Source: Leptolyngbya sp. BC1307
GTDB taxonomy: Bacteria > Cyanobacteriota > Cyanobacteriia > Phormidesmidales > Phormidesmidaceae
Direction: 5' to 3'
Length of the DNA: 53,840 nucleotides
NCBI RefSeq assembly: GCF_002286735.1
Contig: NZ_NRTA01000030.1
Location: forward strand, 1 to 53,840
In this document: positions 33,719 through 36,999 of the stretch, one piece after another
Numbering within the stretch: the first letter of the stretch is position 1
Layout: each line of letters starts with the position of its first letter
The notes under the pieces: generated by a model
The model's input: only the letters and a program-made list of their open reading frames with translations
Told to the model about the DNA's origin: nothing
Database searches by the model: none
Translations under genes and position numbers: made by a program

Positions 33719-34162
33719 CTAGATCTGAGAAGTGCGGCCCAAAACTTGATCCTTCAGAGCTTCCATTTCGGTCGCTAGCTCACGGCGGTTAGAAGCCTTA
33801 AGCAAATAGCGATAGATGAACCAGCCACTGTAGATCAGGCCGATCAGCTCAAACAAGGGTGCCAAAACCGGCACATCGTTGATGGCGTCTAGAATTGCCA
33901 GGGTCAGCTTAACGGCAATGAATGCGCCAAAAATCAGGCCCAAAGCTGTGAGCGGGCGCTTGTATTCTTGGAAAAATTCGCCAAAATACTTAGGCAGTTC
34001 GCCCAGCTTATCAACGACTTGTCCAGTCATCCGCTTTACGGTCTCAACGGTTTCAGCTGTCGGGGTGTCTCCGGTCAGCGGCTCAGTCCCAGGAGAATTA
34101 AAGTCGGCTGCCGTATTACTTTCAGCATAAACAGCGTCATCGGTTTCAAGATTAGTAGCCAT
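33719..34162 (-). CDS. curT: CurT/CAAD-domain thylakoid curvature protein
   Basis: This 147-residue protein has an acidic N-terminal region (1-45), an amphipathic helix (VKRMTGQVVDKLGELPKYFG), two membrane helices (about 72-90 and 97-118) and a C-terminal amphipathic helix (NRRELATEMEALKDQVLG). This is the CAAD/CURT1 fold. Cyanobacterial CurT bends thylakoid margins and helps form biogenesis centres. The same domain is found appended to some aminoacyl-tRNA synthetases, but here it stands alone. Thylakoid location is inferred from the family. A terminator follows. Confidence 0.88.
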   Translation of the reverse strand: MATNLETDDAVYAESNTAADFNSPGTEPLTGDTPTAETVETVKRMTGQVVDKLGELPKYFGEFFQEYKRPLTALGLIFGAFIAVKLTLAILDAINDVPVLAPLFELIGLIYSGWFIYRYLLKASNRRELATEMEALKDQVLGRTSQI

Positions 34163-34693
34163 AGGGGTTTATAGGGATTAACGACAGGGGTGTTTCTCTG
34201 CCCTTAAGCTCCAGCATTTTCATAGCAATGACTCACGTATCAATCGCCGCTTCATAATTTACGCTGGCGATTTTTGACCATTGCCCAGGCTAGCGACATA
34301 AGAGGCAGAGTATAAATTAAGGCATCATGATAGCGCCTTCACCATAGGGTAGCTAGCGCATATAGATAGAGCGTTGACAATCGTCAATCTACACCCTGAG
34401 AGGTGATTTATCTATAGCAAAGCTCTAAAATAGCTCAAAGCCTTAGAGATACCTATCCCGTGAAAAGGGCTAATAATAACTACCTGGCTGCATTGTACTA
34501 TTATTTGTACTATATAGCGTTTCATCACAAATTTGTTACAGTCGCCGCACCAGAGTGAACCGCTAACCTACCTTTGAGCTGAATTATTGGGAAAAATTGT
34601 GACGCTTGGGAGCGATCGCCTAGCCACGCTCGTCTCACTCCTTAGAATAGAAGCAGCAAATAGAAGCAGCCGCATGCTTCAAGGAGTAACCCC
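34163..34693. other. Divergent intergenic region between curT and hflX
   Basis: About 530 bp, A+T rich. It contains the palindrome TTGACAATCGTCAA at 34374-34387 and repeated TGTACTAT motifs at about 34494-34515, plausible promoter/operator elements. I find no gene. The hflX ribosome-binding site AAGGAG is at 34681-34686. Confidence 0.45.
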
Positions 34694-36388
34694 ATAGAGA
34701 AAATTTACGGTGATCTAAAAGGGCTAAAAACCAGCCAGGTCAAAGCGCTTCAAAGAATCTACCATCAGCGTTTGCCGATTGACCGCGTCACGACCCCAGA
34801 GTTTGCGCAGCGTCTGGCGGCTGTGAGTACAGACATCAATCAGGCGGTGTGTGCTTATGTAGATCGGCGCGGCCATGTCATCCGGGTGGGTGTTGGCAGC
34901 CCGCACCAAACGCAGATTCCGGTGCTAGAGCTGCCGCGCTACGGGGCGGAGCGACTGTGCGGCATTCGCTGCATTGCCACTCAGCTAAAAATTGAGCCGC
35001 CGAGCCACAGTGTGCTCACGGCGATGGCGGTGCAAAGGCTGGATGCGATCGCCCTACTCACCCTCACGGGCACCGGCTTCACACGCAAAGGCGGCGGTGC
35101 CACTGGCTACATCCGAGAGGGCTATTTGGCTCATCTGGTTCCCCATCCTGAGGTGCAGTGGGCCGTCTCGGAGCCACTCAGCTTAGATGAACTCGATCAG
35201 CAAGACTTTTTAGACCTGGCCGAAGGACTAGAAGAAGAGTTTCGCCGGGTATTTGTCGCTCAGCAGGTAGACACTGACCATGAGCGCGTGGTAATCGCCG
35301 GGCTGATGACGGATCAGATGGATGAGGCCACGTTTAAAAACGGGTTACAAGAAGTGGCGCGGCTGGTGGAGACGGCGGGCGGTGACGTTTTGCAAACGCT
35401 GACTCAGAAGCGATCGCGCCCCCACCCACAAACCGTTCTCGGCGCAGGCAAAGTCAGCGATATTGCCTTGGCCGTCCAAACCCTCGGAGCCAATCTGATC
35501 GTGTTTAACCGCGATCTTTCTCCCGCTCAAATCCGCAATTTAGAAAAGCGGATAGGCGTGCGGGTGGTAGATCGCACTGAGCTAATTTTGGATATCTTTG
35601 CTCAGCGGGCTAAGTCTGGGGCCGGTAAGCTTCAGGTAGAGCTGGCCCAGCTAGCGTATCAACTGCCTCGGCTGACCGGACGCGGACAAGCCATGTCCCG
35701 GCTAGGGGGCGGTATCGGCACCCGAGGCCCTGGTGAAACTAAGCTGGAAACCGAGCGCCGCGCCATTCAAAAGCGCCTCAGCCGTCTTCAGCAGGAAGTT
35801 GATCAGCTGCAGGCCCACCGGGCACGACTTCGCCAGCGGCGGCAGCATCACTCAGTGCCCTCTGTGGCAATTATCGGCTACACCAACGCCGGTAAATCTA
35901 CCTTGCTCAACCGCCTGACTGACGCAAAAGTCTACGCAGCTGACCAGCTTTTTGCCACGCTCGACCCAACTACCCGCCGCATTACCATTGCCGATGAACA
36001 GGCCGATCACTCAGATGGGCCGCGATCGCTCGTCCTTACCGACACTGTGGGCTTCATTCAAGACCTGCCGCCTGCCCTAATGGATGCCTTTCGCGCCACG
36101 CTAGAAGAAGTGACCGAAGCCGACGCGCTGATTCACGTAGTCGATGCGGCCCATCCCGCCTGGCAGGCGCATATCCGCTCAGTGATGGGGCTGCTGGCGC
36201 AAATGCCGGTCGCCCCTGGGCCAATTTTACTGGTCTTTAACAAGCTCGATCAGGCGAGTACAGACGCTTTAGAACTGGCGAAAGACGAATACCCGCAGGC
36301 GGTCTTTATCTCAGCCGTGAATAATCTAGGTTTGGATACGCTCAGGCAAAAAGTGCTTCAGCTTGTAGATTACGCGGTCGCTAGCTGA
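34694..36388 (+). CDS. hflX: GTPase HflX (apparent AUA start)
   Basis: HflX is a ribosome-associated GTPase that splits stalled 70S ribosomes. The protein shows the HflX N-terminal domain (TQKRSRPHPQTVLGAGKVSD, FNRDLSPAQIRNLEKRIGVR, DRTELILDIFAQRA, GRGQAMSRLGGGIGTRGPGE), a coiled coil, and the G domain: GYTNAGKST (G1), T-R-R (G2), LTDTVGFIQDLP (G3), NKLDQ (G4). The conserved cyanobacterial beginning, I/M-E-K-I-Y-G-D-L-K-G-L-K, starts at 34694 with ATA, eight bases after AAGGAG, and no ATG, GTG or TTG lies between the in-frame stop at 34661 and 34772. A TTG at 34772 would cut off 26 conserved residues. I therefore place the start at ATA 34694 (564 residues). Confidence 0.9.
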   Translation: MEKIYGDLKGLKTSQVKALQRIYHQRLPIDRVTTPEFAQRLAAVSTDINQAVCAYVDRRGHVIRVGVGSPHQTQIPVLELPRYGAERLCGIRCIATQLKIEPPSHSVLTAMAVQRLDAIALLTLTGTGFTRKGGGATGYIREGYLAHLVPHPEVQWAVSEPLSLDELDQQDFLDLAEGLEEEFRRVFVAQQVDTDHERVVIAGLMTDQMDEATFKNGLQEVARLVETAGGDVLQTLTQKRSRPHPQTVLGAGKVSDIALAVQTLGANLIVFNRDLSPAQIRNLEKRIGVRVVDRTELILDIFAQRAKSGAGKLQVELAQLAYQLPRLTGRGQAMSRLGGGIGTRGPGETKLETERRAIQKRLSRLQQEVDQLQAHRARLRQRRQHHSVPSVAIIGYTNAGKSTLLNRLTDAKVYAADQLFATLDPTTRRITIADEQADHSDGPRSLVLTDTVGFIQDLPPALMDAFRATLEEVTEADALIHVVDAAHPAWQAHIRSVMGLLAQMPVAPGPILLVFNKLDQASTDALELAKDEYPQAVFISAVNNLGLDTLRQKVLQLVDYAVAS

Positions 36389-36999
36389 TCGGCTGTAAGC
36401 ATACCCATCAAAATTTCCATGACATCCTGCAGATCTTCTGGGATAGGGTAAAGCGAGGTGTCCTGCGTAATTCTTTGCTGCTCCACATCCAGATAACCGA
36501 AGATCCAGGCGTTACCGATGGTAACTGCCCCATACAGCATTTTTTGGGTCGTTTCTACGCGCGAAAGTGCAATCAGCTCAACTGCTAACTGAGTAAATCC
36601 CCGGGTAAGGTCGTCATTTTTGGCCTCTACTACCAGTAAGCTACGTTCTCCTCTAATCAGGTAGTCCAGTTTTCCTTTTAATTGCTCATCGACCGTGAGT
36701 AAGTATTCGATTCGCAGCTGACTGCCGGATAATAGAGCCACTTTAGTGAGTACTGGGGCAACCAGTATTTCTCTGCGGGCGGTTTCGCTAGAGAGGAGCA
36801 CGATTTGCAAATTGCTTTCCAAATCTGCCTTGAGTGGATTCACAATGCTCGAAGGCACTGCCGATCTGGGCAAAGACAGCTTCTGCGCACTAAAGCCCAC
36901 GCCAAACTCTGCCAGAATCTCATCTATTTCATAGGGCATCTCAAAATATGAGCGAAAGGTGTAAGACTTACCTTCTCCTAAAAGATTCAAGCGAGACAT
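36370..36999 (-). CDS. PD-(D/E)xK nuclease-fold hypothetical protein
   Basis: This 209-residue protein contains a restriction-endonuclease-like core: LDYLIRG (D112), LLVVEAKNDD (E125, K127) and GFTQLAVEL (Q137), the D-ExK-Q pattern. It is otherwise unfamiliar; similar cyanobacterial proteins are annotated only as hypothetical or restriction-like. It ends inside the 3' end of hflX (19-bp tail overlap, convergent). A role in DNA cleavage is inferred from the fold. No methylase or partner is near. Confidence 0.65.
   Translation of the reverse strand: MSRLNLLGEGKSYTFRSYFEMPYEIDEILAEFGVGFSAQKLSLPRSAVPSSIVNPLKADLESNLQIVLLSSETARREILVAPVLTKVALLSGSQLRIEYLLTVDEQLKGKLDYLIRGERSLLVVEAKNDDLTRGFTQLAVELIALSRVETTQKMLYGAVTIGNAWIFGYLDVEQQRITQDTSLYPIPEDLQDVMEILMGMLTADQLATA

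Follow-up and report, generated by a model that had tools for sequence, protein, structure and literature searches.

A probable non-canonical start codon for hflX in Leptolyngbya and at the equivalent position in other cyanobacteria

In the window, the whole stretch of 53,840 nucleotides analysed here, translation of hflX (34694..36388, plus strand; 564 codons and a stop) probably begins at an ATA codon (34694..34696). Comparison of sequences, on which both the start position and its conservation rest, supports a start at the equivalent codon in relatives. It likewise supports, as a property conserved in cyanobacteria, abnormal pairing of initiator tRNA with the third base of the start codon. 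AUC is the main form of the codon at the cyanobacterial hflX start and AUA the next, with few AUU, GUC and GUU.

The hflX locus in the window

The product is HflX according to NCBIfam TIGR03156 (466.9 bits versus a cut-off of 216.75), with the Pfam domains GTP-bdg_N, GTP-bdg_M, and MMR_HSR1 at residues 217-517. For each of the 19 sequences listed, the match to solved structures starts no earlier than residue 172. The solved structures leave the N-terminal part uncovered, indicating that the HflX of the window is a long form, carrying about 200 additional N-terminal residues encoded within 34694..36388 (plus). One full-length hflX copy was found in the genome; its neighbours in the window are an ORF at 33719-34162 (minus), divergent from it, and one at 36370-36999 (minus), convergent with it.

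The ATA is preceded at a spacing of 7 nt by the Shine-Dalgarno sequence AAGGAG (34681..34686, plus) and is directly followed by the conserved peptide E-K-I-Y-G-D-L-K-G-L-K. Two features of genes with IF3-discriminated starts are present: a Shine-Dalgarno sequence, here AAGGAG at 7 nt, and a third base other than G (the AUU/AUC/AUA class), here conserved in relatives. From the in-frame stop TAG (34661..34663, plus), the hflX frame has no ATG, GTG, or TTG up to TTG (34772..34774, plus), the first canonical in-frame codon and unlikely to be the true start; initiation there would lose the conserved codons at 34697..34771 (plus). The first-pass annotation had described this arrangement of AAGGAG, ATA, stop, and TTG, and sequence and ORF reading agree with it. 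Its further claim that a start at TTG 34772 would delete conserved residues holds in the codon-wise conservation over 161 loci described below.

The leader itself is short if a candidate promoter element, the -10-like hexamer TAGAAT (34643..34648, plus), is functional. The consensus scan that detected it gave 2 sites in the region versus a chance expectation of 1.3, which makes the hexamer a weak candidate; TAAAAT is found at a comparable place in three loci of the same genus (L007, L008, and L011). The folding of the window's hflX leader is not unusual (z -0.61), and this leader has no Rfam match up to E 1. A seven-codon out-of-frame ATG ORF (34674..34697, plus), the TAG stop of which overlaps the ATA as ATAG, was considered as a leader ORF and rejected: it is without a common equivalent in the genus loci and is probably due to chance.

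Some 30 loci, mostly of other families, contain a hairpin, RCCAG-loop-CTGGY, that ends about 10-12 nt before the hflX start (for example, 1972-1988 of L048; also L049, L053-L058, L063, L070, L071, L203, L204, L238, and L239). The 5' side of the hairpin often includes a G-rich, Shine-Dalgarno-like run, and the hairpin may put the Shine-Dalgarno sequence at a working distance from the start. A hairpin score of at least 13 is reached in 28 of 161 loci versus 7.5 in mononucleotide shuffles, and the outer pair (n = 31) is G-T in 16, A-T in 11, G-C in 3, and another pair in 1. RNAalifold on a MAFFT alignment of 33 loci picked for the hairpin motif returned no structure, and four hairpin loci gave no Rfam matches.

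Start codons of hflX across the phylum

The main hflX was read in 159 genomes, 119 of 143 in a first set and 40 more from a 292-genome set, with 11 second hflX copies excluded from the count. The genomes of both sets outside the 159 had an absent, cut, or distant N-terminus, had been read already, or were not sampled. In 124 of the 159, the start codon is non-canonical (ATC, ATA, ATT, or GTC) and the 12 nt upstream contain no canonical codon in frame; L116 and L215 among the 124 are scored one codon upstream, at ATT. Another 13 have a non-canonical codon with a canonical one nearby, and 22 lack the feature. The 124 genomes are spread over 38 of the 48 families; of these 38, f48 and f50 are not part of the cyanobacterial class. 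The proposal of the first-pass annotation that AUA acts as an initiator is thus backed by a non-G start at the exact codon across most cyanobacterial families read.

The starts were read in three sets. A set of 30 loci has ATC in 19, ATA in 8, GTC in 2, and GTT in 1, with no canonical codon at that position. In a named set of 34 loci, three of which (L035, L036, and L037) are contigs also present in the 30-locus set, 33 cover the N-terminus; 31 of these have ATC or ATA and 2 have ATG. The two ATG loci are from Nodosilinea (56% identity), and their N-terminus matches second copies of genomes with an ATC hflX. A third set comprised 140 regions, chosen because their match extended to, or almost to, the N-terminus. 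Second copies (n = 11) have ATG in 7 and ATC in 3, and one has ATG four codons upstream; ATG at this exact codon is seen in second copies only; no main hflX read from a cyanobacterium has it.

The 22 exceptions are concentrated in a few families. TTG or GTG stands two codons upstream in f2 (5 genomes) and f16 (6), and ATG stands 36-60 nt upstream in f5 (5), one codon upstream in f21 (1), and two codons upstream in two of the four f35 genomes; one f34 genome (L213) is unreadable, with a stop within the stretch, and two non-cyanobacterial genomes have ATG. The other two f35 genomes have the same ATG with ATC kept as codon 3 and are counted among the 13. In 12 cyanobacterial genomes, the non-canonical codon has a canonical one at most 12 nt upstream, at which translation could start; this counts against the non-canonical start. 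Two loci with ATG two codons upstream and ATC as codon 3, L220 and L223, resemble reversions to a canonical start. In addition, two hflX matches (G189:C1:765134-766804 and G306:C1:1479975-1481645) have one in-frame stop each.

Outside the cyanobacterial class, the five long hflX genes read from other classes of the phylum have ATT (L227), ATC (L230), ATG (L228 and L231), or ATT with canonical codons upstream (L229). Two long hflX relatives were found in plasmid sequences, both from Fusobacterium; the one read starts with ATG, so long HflX does not always have the feature.

To locate the start by coding constraint, we compared 161 unique non-canonical loci, including 24 loci of the named set and 3 second copies, over 11,347 locus pairs with 60-90% identity downstream. 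For codons upstream, 0.64-0.76 of pairs differ at every one of the three positions; the codon directly before the start is partly conserved (0.33-0.49). From the ATA/ATC codon on, no more than 0.27 of pairs differ at the second position and 0.29-0.75 at the third. Coding constraint begins at the ATA/ATC codon and is absent before it. Within the stretch available, the frame of 109 of the 161 loci runs back to the next upstream stop without passing a canonical codon. Counting against a start at this codon, GGAG, GAGG, or AGGA at -18 to -4 is present in only 84 of the 161.

The codon itself is also distinctive. ATC, ATA, and ATT occur in a ratio of 126:30:2 at the start versus 64:4:59 at Ile codon 4 (chi-square p 1.7e-20), and the base at -1 is T in 124 of 161 loci (77%; C in 31) versus 28% in 61 ATG genes with a Shine-Dalgarno sequence from one same-genus genome (p 2.5e-11), both p-values being overstated since the sequences are related. 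A U before the start codon can pair with A37 of the initiator tRNA, aiding weak starts. On a FastTree phylogeny of 189 rows, which is rough, being built from about 65 N-terminal residues with 13 second copies and L213 left out, the non-G start codons interchange at least 17 times, with 7 changes between them and other states. ATA is a single transition away from ATG, yet the third base stays non-G.

A comparison of window ORFs with 800 kb of a same-genus genome (G002) yielded 52 pairs. The hflX alignment begins 30 codons before the first canonical start of the window, the ATA lying 26 codons before it. An excess of at least 13 codons is also seen for eight further ORFs of the window, each 90-100% inside a longer opposite-strand ORF. 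The excess is not visible from the G002 side, because an in-frame GTG stands 18 nt before the ATA of its hflX.

These data bear on three explanations that dispense with a non-canonical start. A sequencing or assembly error, by which a true ATG was read as ATA, would take a single-base difference in a draft genome of 222 contigs, but its probability is negligible: the comparison of close relatives proposed in the first-pass annotation, with ATA in all 7 genus members (L001 and L006-L011), removes this alternative, and non-G codons occur in 38 of 48 families, some of them in single-contig genomes. An ordinary Ile or Val codon read by another initiator tRNA would account for the fact that every non-canonical variant counted encodes Ile or Val, but is scarcely credible, as the codon choice differs strongly from that at the remaining Ile codons of hflX and almost never falls on ATT; we know of no Ile/Val initiator tRNA of such a kind. 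Translation could instead start at a canonical codon elsewhere, either downstream at TTG 34772, the first canonical one, or upstream out of frame with subsequent frameshifting, for which the overlapping ATG ORF at 34674-34697 would be available in the window and an other-frame ORF with a canonical start reaches the codon in 114 of 161 loci. However, the stretch ahead of TTG 34772 shows constraint at the protein level, in 94 of 124 loci the next canonical codon downstream comes only after codon 20 and has no fixed place, in-frame stops are located 6-15 nt upstream in many loci, and 47 of 161 loci have no overlapping upstream canonical-start ORF in either other frame. We therefore regard a canonical start elsewhere as very unlikely, and, as a general explanation, a downstream TTG start or frameshifting is rejected on the constraint and on the loci that lack an upstream ORF.

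Proposed role of the start codon and the infC genes

AUG, GUG, and UUG are canonical since IF3 discriminates against AUU, AUC, and AUA but not against them (review, PMC4611024). In vitro, IF3, EF-G, and RRF lower the products of third-base mismatches, AUU/CAU being among those for IF3; the fMet experiment of the same study omitted AUC/CAU and AUA/CAU (PMC10158994). HflX is an alternative ribosome recycling factor (PMC9067457) that splits vacant and hibernating ribosomes (PMC6060826), and ribosome-splitting activity is known for HflX homologues (PMC9067457, PMC6060826). The combination of the IF3, EF-G, and RRF biochemistry, the low yield of such starts in S. aureus, the role of HflX, and the proposed or shown control of hflX genes by leaders suggests a codon that would report initiation and recycling capacity.

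In such a mechanism, fMet initiation would occur at AUA 34694, positioned by AAGGAG. AUA and AUC starts would be weak, with IF3 selecting against them and EF-G with RRF also selecting against third-base mismatches, and basal HflX would be low. When free IF3 or the recycling capacity of EF-G and RRF goes down relative to 30S, initiation at AUA/AUC would go up, and more HflX, as an alternative ribosome splitter, would restore free subunits. Initiation at the codon, its low yield, and the factor-sensitive feedback are what we infer; on the basis of PMC4611024 and PMC10158994, hflX expression would be responsive to the IF3 level. The sensitivity to initiation factors put forward in the first-pass annotation fits these sources and the ATC or ATT starts of a second infC gene. 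Our preferred reading, that hflX starts at AUA and is kept factor-sensitive, with HflX rising as initiation or recycling capacity falls, strikes us as evenly balanced between right and wrong.

The infC genes have two kinds of starts. In the main infC, the conserved N-terminus is preceded in frame by one or more canonical codons in 30 of 30 (the best 30 matches, from 58 genomes); because a canonical start is available to this gene, IF3 need not be autoregulated where hflX stays AUC. A second, diverged infC (L069, at 87250-87699 of G000 contig C8, minus, and L240-L259) scores above the TIGR00168 cut-off, at about 140-161 bits. As judged by eye, it starts with ATC or ATT in 21 of 21 read, the genome of the window included, after AGAGG, GGAGG, or AGGAG as the Shine-Dalgarno sequence; between the upstream stop and the conserved motif, 18 of the 21 have no canonical codon and 3 have TTG. 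Of the 21 genomes, 19 had their hflX read, and its start is non-canonical in every one of these, in one case with GTG near. In the genus of the window, the second infC is the only infC found (7 of 7 genomes). In non-cyanobacterial classes of the phylum, infC has ATT after a strong Shine-Dalgarno sequence in 5 of 5 loci parsed by motif, out of 11 (L303, L308, L310, L312, and L313; one with ATG further down). Taken with the ATT and ATC starts of long hflX in these classes, this indicates that the feature may be old in the phylum.

More tentatively, hflX and the second, AUC-class infC could form a cyanobacterial subunit-homeostasis circuit written in start codons, in which a fall in IF3, EF-G, or RRF would directly raise synthesis of the factors that free and guard 30S. 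In the genus of the window, whose genomes yielded only the ATC-started infC, the circuit would close via IF3 itself. We consider this wider circuit a real possibility, though less likely than not.

The main competitor of a factor-sensing codon accepts the AUA/AUC start as real but makes it a constant brake, which would keep HflX scarce, on the premise that excess splitting is harmful, and would sense no factor. It accounts for the conservation nearly as well, and conservation of a weak codon alone cannot tell a brake from a sensor; moreover, non-canonical starts of S. aureus yield about 10% of an AUG reporter in poor medium (PMC13009471). On the other hand, UUG or a weak Shine-Dalgarno sequence would serve as a brake, whereas the third base has stayed non-G through at least 17 codon changes, and infC has the same codon class in genomes with such an hflX. 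A constant brake is accordingly a substantial possibility, if somewhat short of an even chance. If the non-canonical start is real, hflX would be a broad case of such a start beside infC, extending across most sampled families of the main class of the phylum, and annotation limited to ATG, GTG, and TTG would inevitably give a truncated or wrongly started HflX for many cyanobacteria.

Comparison with known systems

In the open-licence literature searched, as far as its available text goes, we found no report of a non-canonical hflX start; the term HflX is absent from the available text of PMC13339759. Among 61,358 ancestral AUG starts reconstructed in groups of close prokaryotes, one changed to AUU (PMC5622118). 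The hflX of E. coli K-12 also has a weak start, TTG, but TTG counts as canonical with respect to IF3 (PMC4611024) and the protein is a short form.

Control of hflX by ribosome state has precedents. Leaders that respond to stalled ribosomes have been proposed or shown for hflX of Bacillales (uORFC-6-1 motif, PMC8632094) and for hflXr (PMC6310831), and, as suggested here, output is tied to ribosome state through the leader. The Bacillales and hflXr systems use a leader ORF, ribosome stalling, and attenuation, whereas in cyanobacteria the start codon of hflX itself would be used; no conserved leader ORF was seen at cyanobacterial hflX.

Initiation at ATA has been documented in one cyanobacterium. 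Proteogenomics of Nostoc sp. PCC 7120 revised 8 genes to ATA or ATT starts, with peptides showing initiation at ATA (PMC8557916), the codon with which several Nostocales hflX loci start. The main text of that study does not name hflX, the gene names being in Table S6, and hflX may be among the 8.

In S. aureus, AUA ccpN, AUU cvfC1, and AUA infC are likewise conserved non-canonical starts, and we count their strong Shine-Dalgarno sequences and low initiation yield as a likeness to hflX (PMC13009471). The AUA/AUU starts of ccpN, citZ, and cvfC1 give about a tenth of the AUG output in poor medium, and that of ccpN up to 30% in rich medium (PMC13009471). These starts were demonstrated by ribosome profiling and reporters and the genes are unrelated, whereas the cyanobacterial hflX start is derived from comparison.

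A further parallel is the autoregulation of E. coli infC by IF3 through AUU, where the third base is also non-G and the gene also acts on subunit availability (PMC1780047, PMC13009471). It differs in the gene and in the codon, AUU rather than AUC/AUA, and control of hflX by IF3 would be an extension of it. The AUU starts of pcnB and lepA, known from E. coli for one and from Borrelia burgdorferi and Bacillus licheniformis for the other, are weak non-G starts of single genes as well, lepA also encoding a translation GTPase (PMC1780047). Unlike pcnB and lepA, hflX has its non-G start in most of the cyanobacterial families read.
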